Shown here piece by piece: positions 29,577-40,262 of a stretch of 64,000 nucleotides of DNA. The first letter of the stretch is position 1. Every line of letters begins with the position of its first letter. The stretch is from an uncultured Akkermansia sp. (lineage in GTDB: Bacteria; Verrucomicrobiota; Verrucomicrobiia; Verrucomicrobiales; Akkermansiaceae). The position numbers and the translations under genes were made by a program. Under the pieces are notes generated by a model, which had not been told where the DNA came from, did not search any database, and worked only from the letters and a program-made list of their open reading frames with translations. Where the stretch lies: assembly GCA_949296365.1 (NCBI GenBank), contig CASFPZ010000007.1, positions 1-64,000 of the forward strand, written 5' to 3'.

Positions 29577-32522
29577 ATGGTATATTTTTTCGCGTTCCGA
29601 AGATTTAATGCTTTAAACCTCTGTCGTAAGTTTATCTTAGAGGTGTTAGCTTTGATGTTGTTGAATACTTCTGTGCAAGCATCCTATAAAAGTTTTGAAC
29701 TTCGGGCTGCTTCTAATGCTGAATCTGCTAATGGAGAAACTGATTTCAAAGGTCCAACTGCCGTGTTCTCGACAGATGACCGCATCCGATTCCTAAATGA
29801 TTACGCAACCTTTGCATCGCAGTATTTCGAAGATCCCGAACTGAATGACAAGGCGGTATCTGAAGAAGAAGTCACAAAATTTCTGAAAAATCTGAAACCA
29901 CAACCCCTCCCTGAAGTCCGAACGGTTTTGAATCTCAATTCCGGATGGAAAAAAATGCCGATTCCTTGTGAAAACATAGAAAGGCAAAGCCCGTTGCGAC
30001 ACCAGGCTGGAATAAATCTTTGCGACGGTTGGATTCGATTGCCTGCGGGGCAACACAATGTTGTTGGTTTCCATCAGGTACAAGCGGCTTGTTTTGAGTG
30101 TTCGTGGCAAATTCGTCCAACTACGAACCAAATTGTGCTAAAATGGGGTGGAAGAATCTTGCCATTTCCCGCAGCGACAAACGGGAGCTGGAATACATAC
30201 CGTATGCAAATTGATCGCAATGAGAAGAAGGCGGTGTTATCTTTCAATGGACACCAGGTGGCTGTTGTCGATTACCCCGGGCAAGGAGAGACAATTTCTG
30301 TAGAAACAGCAAAACCGATCGAGGTGACATCTATTGTGCTTATCGATTACCTGTCCAACAAAGACAAAAGTCTGGTTCAGGATGGAGAAATGACTTTGCG
30401 TTCATTGTCAGAGACTCGCCCTTATGTTGCCCGTGTGTTGATCGACGATTCTTTTCGGGCTCCTATTTCACGGAATTCTTGGCAATCTGAGAATTATAAT
30501 GACCAAAATTGGTTGTTGACGGATTTACCTTGTGTTCAAGGGGGATTTCGAGAAGCCGATCAAAACCTCTATCTGAGGAAGATGGTGGATCTTCCTCAGA
30601 TTCCAGAACGTGTCATTCTAGAGATGGAATCAGTAGATCCCTCGGGTGATCTTTGGGTTAATGGCCAACATGTTATTAGATTCAATGATCGAGATCCTAA
30701 ATGGCTTGATATTACTCCTTATGTGAAAACCGGGAAAAATATGTTGGCGTTGTTAGTTGATTCTAGACGAATTACGGAATTGGTGTCTCATTCGTCCTTC
30801 GACGATTCATTGGGGTGGTTCTGTGGACGGATGCGCCTTCACCTTGTACCTGGACGACAATTGATTTGCCGGACACTCGTTTCAACCCAGCAGTGGAATC
30901 CTAAATTGGGAACGGCTATCCAACATCATCGTGTGAGGTTGGATAACCAGTCGGATTCTTCGTTCGATGGAACCCTTGAAGTTCGATATTCTCCGTGGTT
31001 TCCAATGGAAGAAGGCTTAACTGTACAGCAACACCTCCCGGTCACTTTGGCTAAAAATTTTGAGTCTGAGCTAGAGTTTGACATGGTTTTGCCGGAAGCA
31101 CAGGTGTGGAGACCTGATTCTCCCCAGTTGTACAAGGTTCATCTATTGTTGAAGAATGCTTCTGGACATGTTTGTGATGACTTCGTGACAACAACAGGGG
31201 TGAGAACAATTGCTCAGAAACACGGAAAATTATTACTGAATGGCCAAGAAACTATATTAATTGGAGGGCAAACCATGGGATTTCGACCTGCCCCATTTAT
31301 TGAGAACTCAGCAAAATACAATCGCTGCGGTACAGAAAGAATGTTGATGACTGAGTTATTAACCATAAAGAAAATGGGAGGTAATTTGTTGAGAATTCAC
31401 AATCACATAGCCAATACTGGCCCAGATGGTTGTGGTGATCCGCGCATTGCTGAAATGGCTGATCAATTGGGGGTAGCCTTGTTTTGGGCGCTTCCGGGTT
31501 GGATTCGACAAGGCGATGAACGTAAGGCGGATGTGTTGCAGATGTGTAAACACATCCAGGCCCTTTACAATCATCCTGCAATCTTGAATTGGGAGGCTAG
31601 TAATCATCCCAATGCGTTCCCCAAAAAACAGGGTCCTTCCCGTACCAATGACTTTGTTCGTCGAGTGGTAAGAACGATCCTTCAATTCGATCAATCTCGT
31701 TTGATTACACCGACTACTTATTGGGGATGGACTGACTATGCTAATGACCTAGGGACGAAAGATCGTGAAGGACAGACAATCAAAGCCGTTCCGGAATATA
31801 CGCATCCTCTCGTGACTCGTGGTGCGCAGGATTCTATGACGGGGTATGGACGCGAATGGTCGAACCTCCGGTTGTGGCCTTATGGCATGGCCCAAAGTAC
31901 TCTCGACAACAAAATACGTGCCTGGATGAATTTTGAACACGAAGAATCGGCTGCACAACCCAATTGGAATTTGTCTCTGGGGTTTCCCTGGCACAAAGTT
32001 CGTTCATATGAAGCTTCCTATGAAAAAGGCAGTATCGGAAGACAGTTGTCAACTGATGAATGGCGTACGAGCCAAGCTTGGCAAGCTTTTAGCGCTTATG
32101 AATCAATGAAAAAACAACTAGCCTATGGAGTGGCGGCTTTTTCTTGGTGTACGATTGAAGGAGGGGCGAATAGCGGAACGTACGAAAAACCATTGCTCGA
32201 CCCGATGGGGCATGCCAAATTGGCCTGGCATATTCACAAGTTGGTGTCTCAACCTTTGTTTGCAGGGAGCGACAATGTCGATGTTGTCTATGGTCCCGGC
32301 GATAGCATTGTTCCCGTCGTGTTCTCAAAGGGTAAGTTATGTTCAGTCCGACTCTCGCTGAAGGTGAAATCCTTGACTGGGCAGGTTGTTGATTCGTATA
32401 CATTCAATAGAATAAAAATCGACGCTGGCGTTCGAACAACCAAATTGCCTGCTGTTCGCCCCAAGTTCCCGGCTGAAGGCAATTACATTATTGAGTACGA
32501 GGTGCAAAAGTTACAAGATTAA
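29577..32522 (+). CDS. Exported glycoside hydrolase family 2-like protein
   Basis: 981 residues with an N-terminal export signal (about residues 16-36, FILEVLALMLLNTSVQAS). The GH2 order is present: a jelly-roll sugar-binding domain (RKMVDLPQIPERVILEME, LWVNGQHVIRFNDRDP), an immunoglobulin-like domain, and a TIM barrel starting LLLNGQETILIGGQTMG. The barrel shows LLTIKKMGGNLLRIHNHI and NHPAILNWEASNHPN (666-679). In typical GH2 enzymes the latter ends W..GNE, with the acid/base Glu after Asn; here the Asn is followed by His (677), although a Glu is at 673. A possible nucleophile is in MNFEHEES. An additional N-terminal region of about 100 residues is unassigned. The neighbours uxaB and uxaA suggest that it releases a hexuronic acid. 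Confidence 0.85.
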   Translation: MVYFFAFRRFNALNLCRKFILEVLALMLLNTSVQASYKSFELRAASNAESANGETDFKGPTAVFSTDDRIRFLNDYATFASQYFEDPELNDKAVSEEEVTKFLKNLKPQPLPEVRTVLNLNSGWKKMPIPCENIERQSPLRHQAGINLCDGWIRLPAGQHNVVGFHQVQAACFECSWQIRPTTNQIVLKWGGRILPFPAATNGSWNTYRMQIDRNEKKAVLSFNGHQVAVVDYPGQGETISVETAKPIEVTSIVLIDYLSNKDKSLVQDGEMTLRSLSETRPYVARVLIDDSFRAPISRNSWQSENYNDQNWLLTDLPCVQGGFREADQNLYLRKMVDLPQIPERVILEMESVDPSGDLWVNGQHVIRFNDRDPKWLDITPYVKTGKNMLALLVDSRRITELVSHSSFDDSLGWFCGRMRLHLVPGRQLICRTLVSTQQWNPKLGTAIQHHRVRLDNQSDSSFDGTLEVRYSPWFPMEEGLTVQQHLPVTLAKNFESELEFDMVLPEAQVWRPDSPQLYKVHLLLKNASGHVCDDFVTTTGVRTIAQKHGKLLLNGQETILIGGQTMGFRPAPFIENSAKYNRCGTERMLMTELLTIKKMGGNLLRIHNHIANTGPDGCGDPRIAEMADQLGVALFWALPGWIRQGDERKADVLQMCKHIQALYNHPAILNWEASNHPNAFPKKQGPSRTNDFVRRVVRTILQFDQSRLITPTTYWGWTDYANDLGTKDREGQTIKAVPEYTHPLVTRGAQDSMTGYGREWSNLRLWPYGMAQSTLDNKIRAWMNFEHEESAAQPNWNLSLGFPWHKVRSYEASYEKGSIGRQLSTDEWRTSQAWQAFSAYESMKKQLAYGVAAFSWCTIEGGANSGTYEKPLLDPMGHAKLAWHIHKLVSQPLFAGSDNVDVVYGPGDSIVPVVFSKGKLCSVRLSLKVKSLTGQVVDSYTFNRIKIDAGVRTTKLPAVRPKFPAEGNYIIEYEVQKLQD

Positions 32523-32568
32523 TAGCCCATCGTATTCTCCTGTGTTTCTTAAAAATGTGCTTTTATCC

Positions 32569-34005
32569 ATGAAACGTCTCAATTACAGGAACATGCGTCA
32601 ACTCGGACAAGGTGGGGCTTGTGTTGTACCATGTCGGGCAATCCAGTTTGGAGAAGGGAATTTTATCCGTGCATTTATTGAACCTATGCTGCAGGTGTTG
32701 GCAGACAAGGGATATTTTGATGGATCGGTTGTGATAATTAAACCGCGGACGGGGAATAATGTGGTTTTCCGGGAACAAGACGGACTGTATACGTTGATCG
32801 AACGCGGTATCGAACAAGGTCAAACTGTCTCAAGAACCCGCCTCATCAAAATTGTTTCCCAATGTCTCCAACCTGAGTCACAAGGGAAAGAATTCCTGGA
32901 ACTATCGCATGTCCCTTCGTGTCGGTTTGTGTTTAGTAATACTACGGAATCGGGATTGAGGTATGGCAATGAATCTTGGGATGGCTCCTCCTTGCCTAAA
33001 TCTTTTCCGGCTCGGTTGACTGTATGGTTGTTCGAACGTTTCAAACATTTCCAAGGAGCTACCGATAAGGGAATGGTGATGATCCCTTGTGAATTGGTCT
33101 ATGCCAATGGTGAGGTCTTGCGCTCGATTGTCAAACATCATGCTGAAGATTGGAAGTTACCCGTAGATTTCTTGTTCTGGCTTGAGCATTGTTGCCGATG
33201 GATTAATACCCTTGTCGATCGCATTGTACCTGGTTTCCCTTATGGAGAGGAGGAAGTTCTGTGGAACCAATTGGGATATGAAGATCGTTTGATGGTTTCT
33301 ACCGAGCCTTATAGTGAGTTCGTGTTGGAATCTTCAGGTGATTTGGAGAACGAGCTACCATTTCAAAAATGCGGTTTGCCGGTTGTGTACGCCGATAATT
33401 TGACTCCTTGGTATTTACGGAAAATTCGCTTACTCAATGCCTTACACACTAGTTGTGTTCCGTTGGGGCGTCTTTTAGGTTTCGTAGACATTCGCGGGAT
33501 GATGCTGGATGCTCAAATATTTGGATATATGAAATCGGTACTTGAAGAAGAACTTCTCCCATCGTTGGATCCTTTGCCGCCTTATGCCCAAATGTTTGCC
33601 AGTAAAGTTCTCGAACGGTTCTGTAATCCTTTTAGTGTTCATCGATTAACTTCAATTACGCTTAATTGCATTGATAAATGGAATGAGCGAGTTCTACCAG
33701 CAATATTAGATTATAGGCGGCTCTTGCATAATGTTCCTGTGCGCCTGGCTCGTTCTTGGGCAGCTATGGTGACGATGTACTGGAATTTGCCTGTGGAAGA
33801 TTCCCTAGACAAAATCCAGCGTATTCGGGCTTATCAGACTGGCATTGAACAGGGGGGAGTTCTCTCGAATAGTATGTATCAGTTACTTGCAGATCGTAAT
33901 TTGTGGAAAGAAGACTTGTGCCAATTCCCAGATCTTGTTGAATCTTTGCAATTTAGCATGGAGGAATTCTTACATGGTGATTTTTTATTTAAATTTTGCA
34001 AATAA
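32569..34005 (+). CDS. uxaB: Tagaturonate reductase (altronate oxidoreductase)
   Basis: NADH-dependent reductase of the mannitol dehydrogenase family that turns tagaturonate into altronate in galacturonate catabolism. The ATG at 32569 gives 478 residues, near the usual UxaB size; the open frame upstream overlaps the GH2 gene and is not needed. The N-terminal segment IQFGEGNFIRAFIEPMLQVL is the dinucleotide-binding start of the family. MVMIPCELVYANGEVL, followed by the WYLRKIRLLNALHT segment with the catalytic lysine, matches the family active site. The UxaB versus mannonate or mannitol enzyme decision rests on the adjacent altronate dehydratase and the overall resemblance. It is in the second position of the uronate operon. 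Confidence 0.88.
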   Translation: MKRLNYRNMRQLGQGGACVVPCRAIQFGEGNFIRAFIEPMLQVLADKGYFDGSVVIIKPRTGNNVVFREQDGLYTLIERGIEQGQTVSRTRLIKIVSQCLQPESQGKEFLELSHVPSCRFVFSNTTESGLRYGNESWDGSSLPKSFPARLTVWLFERFKHFQGATDKGMVMIPCELVYANGEVLRSIVKHHAEDWKLPVDFLFWLEHCCRWINTLVDRIVPGFPYGEEEVLWNQLGYEDRLMVSTEPYSEFVLESSGDLENELPFQKCGLPVVYADNLTPWYLRKIRLLNALHTSCVPLGRLLGFVDIRGMMLDAQIFGYMKSVLEEELLPSLDPLPPYAQMFASKVLERFCNPFSVHRLTSITLNCIDKWNERVLPAILDYRRLLHNVPVRLARSWAAMVTMYWNLPVEDSLDKIQRIRAYQTGIEQGGVLSNSMYQLLADRNLWKEDLCQFPDLVESLQFSMEEFLHGDFLFKFCK

Positions 34006-34100
34006 TTTGGAACAACAGAAATTTTTCGGGAAAATAGGAATCATGTATATAACTTGATCATATTTTCCGGGTATTTGTAAAACCTGAAAATTTTATTTTG

Positions 34101-35612
34101 ATGAATTATATGGATGGTTTATTTCGGAAAGCAATTCGTTTGAGTATTCGTGACAACGTTTTCATTGCTGTGGTCCCTTTACATGCTGGCGATATTGTGG
34201 AGGGGATCTCTGTTTTGGAAGATATTCCTGCTGCTCATAAAGGGGCGCTTTGCGATATCCAGCAAGGAGAAATTGTGTACAAGTATGGCGCTCCTATAGG
34301 TAAGGCAACTCGACAGATCCATGCCGGGGAACACGTTCATATCCACAATTTGTCTTCTATGCTAGGATCGCAATCTCATGATTGCCTTGCTGATATTTCT
34401 ATTGAAAACATATCCATTCCGCCTGTTGGAGCATTCCCAAAATATTTTCAGGGGTACCGACGTTGGAATGGTGAGGTTGGTATTCGGAATCAACTTTGGA
34501 TTATTCCAACGGTCGGCTGCGTCAATAGCTTAAGCCGTCGTTTGGCTCAATGCATTAACCAGGAACGAAACTGGGCGGAGGAACAAGCTTCTGTTGCCTT
34601 GGAACATCCGTATGGATGCTCCCAACAAGGAACCGACCATGTGACGACTCGTAAAATACTAGCTCGCTTAGCATTACATCCTAATGCTGGTGGTGTCCTT
34701 ATTGTCAGCCTTGGTTGCGAAAATAATACGCTTGAAGGTATGTTGAAAGAGATGGAACCTTTCGACCCTGATCGTGTTAAATGGCTCGTTGTCCAGCAGG
34801 TACAGGATGAATATAAAGAAGGAATGAAATTCTTACGGGTATTAGCTGACCAAATTGAGCAAGATCAACGTGTCGATTGTCCTGTCGAATCGTTAAAAAT
34901 TGGCCTTAAATGCGGTGGCTCTGATGCTTTTTCTGGGATTACTGCGAATCCCGTTGTTGGCATGGCTTCTGATATGATGAATGCTGCTGGTATTCGTCTG
35001 TTAATGGGAGAAGTCCCAGAAATGTTTGGGGGAGAACACGTTTTGCTCAGCCAAAGTTGCGATCCTGACATTCTCGCTCGTGGCAGGGAGATGATCCTGT
35101 CCTATAAAGACTATTTCATCAATCGTGGGTGCCCGCCGGATGCCAATCCATCTCCGGGCAATAAAGCAGGCGGGATCACAACTCTTGAAGAAAAATCACT
35201 GGGTTGTGTCAGAAAAGCTGGGCGAGTACCTATCAGGGCGATTCTGGAAATGGCTGAACCATGTGTTCAATCCGGACTCAGTCTGGTTCGTAGCCCTGGC
35301 AACGATGCTGTCGCGGTAACCCTTTTGGCGGCCGCGGGTGCGCAACTTATTTTGTTTACGACGGGACGCGGTACTCCCTTGGGCTCTGTCGTTCCTACGC
35401 TTAAAATCAGTTCGACGTCTCAATTGGCCATGCGTAAACCGCATTGGATCGATTTTGATGCTGGGGCGTTTCTCTCTGATAATTACCCAATGAACCTTGT
35501 TGCTCAACGTCTTGTCGAGTGTATCTTCCAAATTATTCAAGGTGTTCCTGCTAAAAACGAACAGAATGATGATCGTAACATTGCAATCTTCAAAGATGGC
35601 ATTACCTTATAA
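34101..35612 (+). CDS. uxaA: Altronate dehydratase
   Basis: Removes water from altronate to give 2-keto-3-deoxygluconate. 503 residues, full length for UxaA. The N-terminal SAF-like domain (GDIVEGISVLEDIPAAHKGA, then IQQGEIVYKYGAPIGKAT) is followed by the large catalytic domain with HPYGCSQQGTDHVTTRKILA, VSLGCENNTLEG, and LKCGGSDAFSGITANPVVG, which carry the cysteines and acidic residues that bind metal. It follows uxaB 95 bp downstream on the same strand. UxaC, KDG kinase and KDPG aldolase, needed for a full pathway, are not in the window. Confidence 0.95.
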   Translation: MNYMDGLFRKAIRLSIRDNVFIAVVPLHAGDIVEGISVLEDIPAAHKGALCDIQQGEIVYKYGAPIGKATRQIHAGEHVHIHNLSSMLGSQSHDCLADISIENISIPPVGAFPKYFQGYRRWNGEVGIRNQLWIIPTVGCVNSLSRRLAQCINQERNWAEEQASVALEHPYGCSQQGTDHVTTRKILARLALHPNAGGVLIVSLGCENNTLEGMLKEMEPFDPDRVKWLVVQQVQDEYKEGMKFLRVLADQIEQDQRVDCPVESLKIGLKCGGSDAFSGITANPVVGMASDMMNAAGIRLLMGEVPEMFGGEHVLLSQSCDPDILARGREMILSYKDYFINRGCPPDANPSPGNKAGGITTLEEKSLGCVRKAGRVPIRAILEMAEPCVQSGLSLVRSPGNDAVAVTLLAAAGAQLILFTTGRGTPLGSVVPTLKISSTSQLAMRKPHWIDFDAGAFLSDNYPMNLVAQRLVECIFQIIQGVPAKNEQNDDRNIAIFKDGITL

Positions 35613-37057: not shown

Positions 37058-38617
37058 TTATGGTAATGACGAATTCAACCTGCGCAGGACGGGAAGCGCC
37101 CGGCGACGCAAGGCTTCATTAGAAGAATGACATGTTGAACGCGACAGGTAAAGCTTGAAAGGCGCTTTATTGGTTTCTATTTCAATTAAATCACTGGCTG
37201 TAGGCTGATCAAGCAGTTCTGACAAGTGTTTGAGGGACTTCACCTGTGTGCCATTGACTTTGTTGACGATGCAAAACCCGCAGGTATTGTATCCTAACGT
37301 GGCTGGCGTAGGCAATACGATGCCGATGACGACAAGCTCTTCCCGACCTTCCTGAACGTAGGTTTCTTTGTTGTTGAGTGCCTTAATGAGTTCCGTAGGC
37401 AAGTTGTTGTCGTTGAATCCCTTGATCGTGTCGATGAAGCTCGAGGTGAGTTTTTGAAAAACTAGCCCGCCATAGATGATGTACGAAGGACAAGCGTTGG
37501 CGATGATGTCGCGCGAAACTAGGTCTTTGTCGACTGCTGAGCGGTCTAACTGGATGTTGAGTGACAACGGCTCTCCATTGCGACGTATCTTGACTGAAAT
37601 GGTGTCGCCCATTTTGTGAGAGTCGTGCATGAGAAGCGCGGCTGGTACTGGACCGAGCGAAGCATCTTGGGTGAGTCCTCGGTTGTCAATGGGGCGCCCG
37701 TCTAGCTCTTCCAATACATCGCCTTTTTGGAGCCCGGCTCGAGCTGCACAAGAACGCGGGACGACTTGCGAGATGTAGATGCCGTTACCGTTGCGGTCGA
37801 GTTTCAGGTATTCGCGGAAGATGGGATCCGTCAATTCGCTGATGGAGATCCCGAGGGTGGGGAATCCGGGCCGCCCGGATTTGGCATTTTGCAAGAAGTT
37901 ATTGATGACTGTTGCGGATACTGCCGTTAATGTCTGCTGGCGGTAATTCAGGCTGATCCCGACTAACTTGTCGTTGACAACTACTGGAATGGTGGCCGAA
38001 CTGGATTCGGGAGTCAGCGTTGCTTGGATATCGCAAGCGAGAAAACCTGGAAAATCGTTCCCTGAAGAAAAGGGTGTCGATGAACGAAAAATCCCCGGTG
38101 TCGTCAACGGCAACCCCTCGTTAGAATATTGCCATAACTCAACCGAAGCATTGAGTGCCTGGGGGGAACCAACTGGAAGCGGGACTAGTCCTTCTAAAAA
38201 CGCGGAGCTTTCTGGTGAAGCGGGGAGTCCTATCAAAGCCAAGTTGGCCTCTGGATCCGAATAAACAACTCGCGCCGATACGGAACGCCCCCCCTGAGAG
38301 GGAACTAATTCAACAAAGGTGGCATCGCGCACCATAGTTTCTACTGTGAGAAATTGTCCGTTTCCCAAATAGACTGCAAACCCATTTGAATATTGCGTAG
38401 ATAATTTCTGCCAGGGCTGTAAATGGTTGTAGGATTGGCGAGTTGCCTTCAAGGTGACCATCGATCGGGTCGGCGAAGGCGTTGCAACGGGCGCTTGCGC
38501 TACTGGCGCCGGAACACAGGGCTCTTGTTGTGTTGGTTGGGGGCTTTGCGCTTGCGCGGGAAAAAGTGGTAGGGTGGCCAATAATCCGGCTAACAAAAAA
38601 AAGGAGAGTGTGTACAT
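37058..38617 (-). CDS. Exported trypsin-like/PDZ protein, catalytically degenerate
   Basis: 519 residues with a signal peptide (MYTLSFFLLAGLLATLPLFP, ending AQA) and a Pro/Gln-rich spacer. The chain aligns with the upstream HtrA-like protease. However, the catalytic His motif TNAHVV is TVETMV (about 91-96), the Asp position in DADLALI is Asn in PEANLALI, and GNSGG is replaced by ESSSA. A PDZ domain follows (about 245-370), with GIYISQVVPRSCAARAGLQK and GDVLEELDGRPID. The C-terminal half matches its neighbour in order. It looks like a non-proteolytic paralogue that may have a regulatory, chaperone or scaffolding role. It starts four bases after the protease stop codon, so the two are likely made together. 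Confidence 0.85.
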   Translation of the reverse strand: MYTLSFFLLAGLLATLPLFPAQAQSPQPTQQEPCVPAPVAQAPVATPSPTRSMVTLKATRQSYNHLQPWQKLSTQYSNGFAVYLGNGQFLTVETMVRDATFVELVPSQGGRSVSARVVYSDPEANLALIGLPASPESSAFLEGLVPLPVGSPQALNASVELWQYSNEGLPLTTPGIFRSSTPFSSGNDFPGFLACDIQATLTPESSSATIPVVVNDKLVGISLNYRQQTLTAVSATVINNFLQNAKSGRPGFPTLGISISELTDPIFREYLKLDRNGNGIYISQVVPRSCAARAGLQKGDVLEELDGRPIDNRGLTQDASLGPVPAALLMHDSHKMGDTISVKIRRNGEPLSLNIQLDRSAVDKDLVSRDIIANACPSYIIYGGLVFQKLTSSFIDTIKGFNDNNLPTELIKALNNKETYVQEGREELVVIGIVLPTPATLGYNTCGFCIVNKVNGTQVKSLKHLSELLDQPTASDLIEIETNKAPFKLYLSRSTCHSSNEALRRRALPVLRRLNSSLP

Positions 38618-38621
38618 GCGA

Positions 38622-40262
38622 TTAGCGCTGCGAAGCAGCAGTTGGTGTGATGGTTTCGCGGGAGCCGTCTAGGCAAACGGCTCTGCCTATGTTATATTGG
38701 CGGGCAATGCGAGCGTTGGCGGCAGCTATGTCAGCTCGTTTGAGGACGATGGGGCGTCCATATTTGTCGCCTTCCATCTCGATGACGATGAATGGCGTTT
38801 GCTGATCGGCTTGCTGCGGGTAAAGAAGTTCGTTCAAATGGGCTAGGCTCTGGACGCGTACCCCATTGACTTTACTGACAACCGGGGGATATGAACCTTG
38901 CGGCGGCAACTGGGAATTAACGGCGTCATCTAGAACGGAAGTCAACATGACGCGTTCCTTGCATTCGGGAGAATTAACCCCTTGGAGGAATTCGGTGACT
39001 TCCAGAGAAACTGAATGAAAAGGAATCTTGTTGTCGTTAAGAACGTCGCGTTGCATGGGCTGGAAAACGAGCCCTGCACAGATGACGTAGCGGGGTTTGC
39101 GATCGTATTCGGCTTCGAGTGCCCACCCGGTCTGAGAGGTCTTCAGCTGCACTGACACCCGTTCGGGCTTCCCCTGACGCATGATGTCAATAGCGACAAT
39201 ATCGCCGGCAAACCGGCGTTCAATCAATTCGTTCATGCTGATGGATTCCCCATCCAAATTGATCATACCTGAACTGTCGACATCGTAGTCGTCTACTTTC
39301 AGGATGACGTCTCCTGTCTTCAGAAGGCCGTCGCATGATGAACCTTTGACGATATCGCTGGCGAGTACTCCGCGTTCGTCGTCTGGCAATTGCAGGGCTT
39401 TGCGCAAGGCTGGATTGGAAATGGGGAATAGAGTCACGCCAAGGTCGACGTATTGATCGTAGCGTCCGTCGCGCACATCTTGTAGAAAACGGTTGACGAC
39501 GGGCACTGGGATGACGTATCCGGTGTTATTGGCGGATGCGATGCCTTGGAAGGCAACGCCGATTACTTTGTTCCCCATGAGGACTGGCCCTCCGCTGTTG
39601 CCTGGGTTGATCGCGGCATCAATCTGTATGGCCAGGTGCTTTTGCATCTTTGAATGCGCGTAGGTGATGAAATCGATGCGCGATACAACCCCTCGCGTGA
39701 CAGAAAGGCGAGTCCCTCCAATGGGATACCCGAGCGCTCGCACTTCGTCTTCAAGCTTGGGTAACTCTTGGCTGAGCTCGAAATAGGGCAATTCGGCAAA
39801 TGGCGCAAAATCTTTCTCATCAATCTCGATGAGTGCTAGATCAGCATCGTGTGCAACATATTTTACCTTGGCTGGAATTTTGCGCGACGACCCGTATTGG
39901 GAAATGTGTATGCGCTCGGCATTGCTGACGACGTGGGCGTTTGTGAGGAAGGCGCATTTGCCTATGAGGAACGCTGTGCCGATGCCGCCACTATAATTGC
40001 CTGGTTGCCAGGGCATCGAATAATCGGGTGTCAAGGTGGCTACTTCAACTTTGACGACTCCTTGATATTGTTTTTCTGTGTCGGGCAAATCTCCCGTCAT
40101 GACGCGGTCTGTACCATAGTCGGCAACAAATGCGGCTTCGTCGGCATCTGGCATTGTGTCATCCTGCCCAACGACTGCCAAAGGACAACCGAGACTGGCC
40201 AGAACGACCCAACTGCATGTACACAACACGCGCCTCAATGGGGTTCTTGTGGAAAGAAACAT
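38622..40262 (-). CDS. Exported HtrA/Deg-like serine protease with PDZ domain
   Basis: 546 residues, N-terminal signal peptide with a hydrophobic core around residues 11-32. The catalytic triad is intact: His110 in FLTNAHVV, Asp141 in HDADLALI and Ser223 in INPGNSGGPV. A PDZ domain follows (about 270-370: GVTLFPISNPALRKALQLPD, then GDVILKVDDYDVDSSG). The C-terminal region continues with a second conserved block (YVICAGLVFQPMQRDVL, VSKVNGVRVQSLAHLNELL) that is shared with the adjacent pseudoprotease and resembles the C-terminal part of plant and bacterial Deg-type proteases (Deg9-like). It is the first gene of a tandem with its inactive paralogue. Envelope protein quality control is the likely role. 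Confidence 0.92.
   Translation of the reverse strand: MFLSTRTPLRRVLCTCSWVVLASLGCPLAVVGQDDTMPDADEAAFVADYGTDRVMTGDLPDTEKQYQGVVKVEVATLTPDYSMPWQPGNYSGGIGTAFLIGKCAFLTNAHVVSNAERIHISQYGSSRKIPAKVKYVAHDADLALIEIDEKDFAPFAELPYFELSQELPKLEDEVRALGYPIGGTRLSVTRGVVSRIDFITYAHSKMQKHLAIQIDAAINPGNSGGPVLMGNKVIGVAFQGIASANNTGYVIPVPVVNRFLQDVRDGRYDQYVDLGVTLFPISNPALRKALQLPDDERGVLASDIVKGSSCDGLLKTGDVILKVDDYDVDSSGMINLDGESISMNELIERRFAGDIVAIDIMRQGKPERVSVQLKTSQTGWALEAEYDRKPRYVICAGLVFQPMQRDVLNDNKIPFHSVSLEVTEFLQGVNSPECKERVMLTSVLDDAVNSQLPPQGSYPPVVSKVNGVRVQSLAHLNELLYPQQADQQTPFIVIEMEGDKYGRPIVLKRADIAAANARIARQYNIGRAVCLDGSRETITPTAASQR

Follow-up and report, generated by a model that had tools for sequence, protein, structure and literature searches.

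The analysed stretch of Akkermansia DNA (64,000 nucleotides; hereafter the window) encodes an active Deg2/Deg9-type serine protease, here called PR, and immediately downstream of it a catalytically dead paralogue, PS. We consider it probable (roughly 70%) that PS is an exported, non-catalytic partner of this protease, likely within a mixed oligomer. The first-pass annotation had proposed that the second protein may regulate or assemble with the first, and this proposal is well supported by indirect evidence, because the two genes co-occur, keep a fixed order, were apparently transferred together, survive together when unlinked, are under purifying selection and have lost motifs reciprocally. 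So far, HtrA enzymes with a pseudoprotease partner have been described from specialized contexts such as magnetosomes and plant DEG7; in the present case, the pseudoprotease gene is found throughout an entire bacterial order including Akkermansia, with hundreds of natural variants.

Both genes lie on the minus strand. PR (38,622–40,262) encodes a protein of 546 amino acids with Trypsin_2, PDZ_2 and PDZ_3 domains (Pfam) and predicted export, and PS (37,058–38,617) one of 519 amino acids, in which a degenerate trypsin-like domain is followed by PDZ_2 and PDZ_3. As initially described, the paralogue follows four bases downstream (38,618–38,621, between the PR stop and the PS start), an operon-like arrangement, and PR carries an intact triad consisting of His110 in TNAHVV, Asp141 in DADLAL and Ser223 in GNSGGP (codons 39,933–39,935, 39,840–39,842 and 39,594–39,596, respectively, as computed from the ORF). 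Alignment of PS with PR shows the degenerate His motif TVETMV (residues 91–96; 38,330–38,347) with T94 under the His, an Asn (N125; 38,243–38,245) replacing the catalytic Asp, and SSSATIP in place of GNSGGP, of which the Pro (P211) is the sole residue retained. The first-pass annotation had recognized these replacements along with the retention of the PDZ and C-terminal domains, the latter being the second PDZ domain, and its designation of the second protein as a pseudoprotease is established at the sequence level. PR and PS are paralogues with 26% identity over 476 columns (BLASTP, E = 3e-30), and the Trypsin_2 match of PS (24.3 bits) lies slightly below the curated Pfam cut-off of 27.6.

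The window is part of a contig (C7) of an Akkermansia genome of 2.67 Mb, and another genome of the same genus (G163) also carries the pair (L222). Since an aroB-like gene, a gene for a 375-aa protein and leuCD flank the pair solely in the closest Akkermansia relatives, PR and PS form a unit of their own. Near the pair, the window also contains ORFs resembling tagaturonate reductase and altronate dehydratase (32,491–35,612, plus strand; named by eye), which in relatives are not located beside it.

The best PDB sequence match of PR is Arabidopsis Deg2 (4fln, E = 1.7e-75), and the closest solved relatives of PS by sequence are likewise Deg2/Deg9 (E = 2.4e-26). AlphaFold2 modelled PS and PR with pLDDT values of 90.5 and 85.8, and the PS model aligned with Deg9 (5il9) and Deg2 (4fln) at VIA-align Z scores of 37.2 and 36.3 over about 454 residues; therefore, judged from the predicted structure, the dead protein retains the whole Deg2/Deg9 fold. 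Both proteins show the Deg2/Deg9 architecture in domain order and fold, with a protease domain, PDZ_2 and PDZ_3, and they are thus not DegP-like in a strict sense. With its triad and C-terminal PDZ domains, PR qualifies as a Deg/HtrA (S1C) protease. PS lacks the triad and the oxyanion Gly (T94, N125, no Ser, GNSGG absent), which marks it, by its residues, as a homologue of this family and not as a protease of it. The Arabidopsis enzymes (4fln, 5il9), which match both proteins best in sequence and fold, share with them the trypsin-like domain followed by PDZ1 and PDZ2 (PDZ_3), and with PS a P-W in the loop connecting strands 1 and 2 as well as a Gly-Tyr in PDZ_3. However, Deg2 and Deg9 are each a single active gene whose products form homo-oligomers, whereas here there are two genes, of which one is dead and the other, PR, is without the Gly-Tyr.

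The division into an active and a dead copy extends across the order. In 59 aligned order genomes, the triad of PR is complete in every case (59/59), while the corresponding columns of PS hold the His in 0/59, the Asp in 0/59 and the Ser in 4/59 copies, the latter never inside GNSGG; since these states recur throughout the 59 genomes, chance is excluded. The pair resides on a single contig in 58 of them, always with PR first and on the same strand (58/58), at spacings from −164 to 78, in which the large overlaps come from choosing the earliest possible start. PS itself is present in all 142 order genomes of at least 95% completeness, representing 29/29 genera, at a threshold of E < 1e-90 that only PS passes (PR scores about 1e-60 to 1e-70). 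It is single-copy in all but one genome and full-length except in one, where the frame is truncated at 399 amino acids. PR accompanies PS in every PS-bearing genome examined in detail. The first-pass annotation had reasoned that related species keeping only one of the genes would speak against a partnership; among the order genomes covered here no such relatives were found.

This universality bears on whether PS is simply a duplicate on its way to becoming a pseudogene. Such decay could account for the lost triad and for the faster evolution of PS compared to PR, but it is at odds with the conservation in 142/142 genomes, an origin before the order, the confident fold and a low dN/dS, which for close pairs mostly ranges between 0.09 and 0.24. 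We therefore regard this explanation, to which we assign almost no probability, as refuted by conservation and selection: PS is not a decaying copy. Summed over 14 pairs, dN/dS in PS amounts to 0.104 for the dead protease domain, 0.125 for PDZ1 and 0.131 for PDZ_3, so the dead domain is as constrained as the PDZ domains; for PR the respective values are 0.029, 0.072 and 0.073.

The constraint is distributed differently within the domain. The mean entropy of the active-site columns reaches 1.82 in PS versus 0.09 in PR (protease domain as a whole: 2.01 versus 1.03), and the drift of these former active-site columns argues against a new conserved active site. A new catalytic activity of PS, using other residues in the old cleft, could build on the retained fold and on N125, which is common among the order copies (45/59). 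Yet none of the former active-site columns holds a polar residue that PS proteins have in common, and what PS does conserve is for the most part Gly, Pro, Asp and Arg with structural roles in the PDZ domains; on grounds of conservation and selection, we rejected this highly improbable alternative. A constrained dead domain with drifting site columns would instead fit a structural or binding role of PS.

HtrA enzymes are often self-controlled, and PS is encoded downstream in one operon with PR, so that PS might be a substrate, an inhibitor or an antitoxin-like brake that PR degrades, instead of a stable subunit. In its sequence, such a brake would look the same as a lasting partner, but the dead protease domain is conserved in both length and fold, which favours a structural role, and we judge the brake to be very unlikely.

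Adjacency alone may reflect co-regulation, which weakens it as an argument for partnership, and loci beyond the order were considered as well. Among 80 named loci gathered by searching contigs with the PR alignment, 74 show the tandem with the active gene first and the dead gene second (some PS frames end at contig ends, and one is split), and the same order was found in the great majority of paired loci from relatives in the class and phylum. Three of the six exceptions could be traced (L099, L102, L104), and in these PS is located on another contig of the genome. Likewise, PR and PS are far apart and yet both present in one genus (g19; G295, G258, G284) and in a further genome (G298). The survival of both genes when unlinked is better evidence for a joint function than their adjacency.

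These unlinked genes also have to be weighed for the possibility that PS acts on its own in the periplasm, as a chaperone or PDZ scaffold which never touches PR, the operon serving joint stress regulation only. The well-conserved PDZ domains of PS, with 17 columns of PDZ1 conserved at 90% or more, would suit such a role, as would the fact that both genes can be unlinked. On the other hand, PS always occurs with PR in the examined genomes, even after unlinking or transfer to another phylum, and the motif losses of the two proteins are reciprocal (see below), so that an independent role appears unlikely. The distribution of the pair is patchy outside the order, where some families possess only single Deg2/Deg9 genes with an intact triad (L195-L207) or none at all; the presence of such single genes in the phylum indicates that the family is able to work alone, and counts against the partner reading.

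The tandem was further detected in Desulfobacterales (L138, L143, L146), in a record named Spirochaetes (L168) and in one named Planctomycetota (L169, ending at the contig end). In a tree of 110 proteins with the triad columns masked, a single branch (SH-aLRT 98) separates all 49 PS proteins from every PR and single-gene protein. Several PS rows are long-branched and long-branch effects are not fully excluded for this grouping, but PS proteins of distant taxa have features such as D121, D311 and G322 in common. None of the 49 PS rows retains more than one triad residue. From this sampling, the origin of PS is placed before that of the order. PR of Desulfobacterota falls within the PR proteins of Verrucomicrobiota, and PS of Desulfobacterota likewise falls within the matching PS group; the simplest reading of this double nesting is a transfer of the pair, which apparently passed as a unit from Verrucomicrobiota into Desulfobacterota. 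Two loci deviate from the common pattern: in one soil MAG (L145, 7410-8881), an apparent frameshift divides PS between two frames, reflecting either a sequencing error or a real lesion, and PS of the Spirochaetes-named record (L168, 7374-8876) carries GGSGEP at the Ser site without His and Asp, a possible intermediate.

Comparison with 12 single-gene relatives indicates what each copy has given up. Of the columns conserved in these relatives, 24 are retained by both proteins, 31 by PR only and two by PS only. The 31 PR-only columns mostly belong to the catalytic surroundings, while the two PS-only columns are the adjacent residues G442 and Y443 in PDZ_3 (37,289–37,294 in the window, minus strand). 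Each of these is found in 47/49 PS proteins (96%), compared to 0/49 (Gly) and 2/49 (Tyr) PR proteins and to 12/12 (Gly) and 11/12 (Tyr) single-gene relatives; Arabidopsis Deg2 and Deg9 read NIGYE at this site. The Gly-Tyr is a feature found in this study and not a published criterion for Deg2/Deg9. With the Gly-Tyr held by PS and the catalytic columns by PR, the losses are reciprocal, and this pattern points to residues worth mutating. The P-W between strands 1 and 2, at the expected site of the LA loop, is invariant in PR, PS and the single-gene relatives. According to the account of Sun et al. 2012 given in PMC4877387, the second PDZ domain of Deg2 contributes to hexamer formation, as it docks the LA loop from the opposite trimer. 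By analogy, a mixed hexamer with PDZ_3 of PS as the socket would be an attractive model.

For the history of the pair, we propose one duplication of an ancestral Deg2/Deg9 gene that would have given rise to PR and PS. The downstream copy would have lost its active site while retaining its PDZ domains, including the PDZ_3 Gly-Tyr, on top of the protease fold, and the upstream copy would have kept catalysis and lost the Gly-Tyr. Made from one operon, the two proteins would most likely assemble as a mixed oligomer. Cleavage would be the task of PR, while PS would bind substrates or partners, promote assembly or exert allosteric control; both the geometry of this complex and the direction of regulation are what we infer. 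With this pair, the general question of how a dead subunit controls a live protease becomes directly testable, and proteins likely to be annotated as "trypsin-like" or "PDZ protein" are here marked as non-enzymes.

In most Akkermansia, PS might in addition attach the complex to the membrane via a lipid anchor, the lipobox being recognized by pattern only. In all 36 other Akkermansia (36/36), PS contains a hydrophobic stretch and then a lipobox-like Cys with K/E/Q/N-P-T/R behind it, and the same pattern occurs in PR in 12/194 cases. Its frequency in PS and rarity in PR suggest that most Akkermansia probably have a membrane-anchored dead partner and a soluble active one. PS of the window, however, has a type I-like N-terminal signal peptide ending in FPAQAQ (38,548–38,617, minus strand) without a lipobox, which speaks against the anchoring part of the partner reading as a general feature; lipidation was apparently lost in this species, and anchoring is thus not essential to the role of PS.

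Several known systems offer parallels. Proteolysis by MamE needs MamO, independent of the MamO active site (PMC4794232), and PR and PS similarly represent an active HtrA protein with a pseudoprotease, the need for the partner having been demonstrated for MamE/MamO (PMC4794232). MamO differs, however, by its transporter domain, its metal-binding di-His and its tie to magnetosomes, and the two systems differ in origin. No transporter domain was detected in PR or PS by Pfam, and the NCBIfam models for MamO and MamE reached 33 and 62 bits on PR, compared to cut-offs of 800. In plant DEG7, an active and a degenerate protease domain likewise arose by duplication, and the inactive domain serves trimerization (PMC3473262), but the protein is a single fused chain with four PDZ domains, whereas PR and PS are separate chains of the PDZ_3 type. 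Arabidopsis Deg5 and Deg8, also two Deg proteins, form hetero-oligomers (PMC4877387), but both possess the triad and Deg5 is without a PDZ domain. A fusion of PR and PS was not found among the inspected loci, and the window encodes them as two ORFs, unlike the DEG7/Nma111 type. Yeast Nma111/Ynm3 is built like DEG7, with active and degenerate domains derived from a duplication and four PDZ domains on a single polypeptide. PR-PS resembles MamE/MamO and DEG7 in its proposed way of working and is a member of neither. Our search of the open-access literature (pseudoprotease/HtrA, Verrucomicrobia, Akkermansia) yielded at most precedents and revealed no paper on the pair.

A genome-wide scan identified four further Trypsin_2 regions in the genome of the window, two of which are tandems of a second type (G000:C78, L300, 1188-3435; G000:C39, L299, 975-2746). 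In these, a short active protease (GGDSGGP) is followed by a degenerate protease with an inserted PDZ domain located between two protease parts, the Trypsin_2 C-terminal part coming after the PDZ, a type that differs from PS. Relatives of this dead protein adjoin an active protease in most of the loci fetched from the order, and in two genomes both are encoded as one ORF (G054, L306, 1480-3711, minus strand, 743 amino acids; G049, L315, 229-2469, plus strand, 746 amino acids from its ATG). Such fusion supports a physical partnership of the second-type proteins and, by analogy, lends support to that of PR and PS. A more far-reaching version of the partnership, which we put forward tentatively and with the odds somewhat against it, would be an obligate PR-PS hetero-oligomer whose chains reciprocally divide the functions of an ancestral homo-oligomeric Deg2/Deg9, with pairing of active and dead S1 proteins having evolved at least two times. 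PR would then represent catalysis, and PS the function of the Gly-Tyr, possibly a hexamer lock or sensor, along with membrane tethering in Akkermansia. If true, the pairing of active and dead S1 proteins, as PR-PS and as the inserted-PDZ type, would be a principle that recurs in the envelope of Verrucomicrobiota.

Finally, evolutionary rates of the two proteins were compared on a fixed GyrB+UvrB topology. Between PR and PS, branch lengths show a correlation of 0.83, which becomes 0.75 once both controls (GyrB, UvrB) are accounted for, while either protein correlates with the single controls at 0.30–0.51 over all branches; only these two controls were used, and their mutual correlation over all branches is 0.17. 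On terminal branches, UvrB also tracks PR (0.76), and the rate correlation is therefore weak support for the partnership. UvrB of the order (G000:C10:2550-4661, L282) matched its model in two separate segments, interrupted near position 400, where a lineage-specific insert some tens of residues long is suggested.
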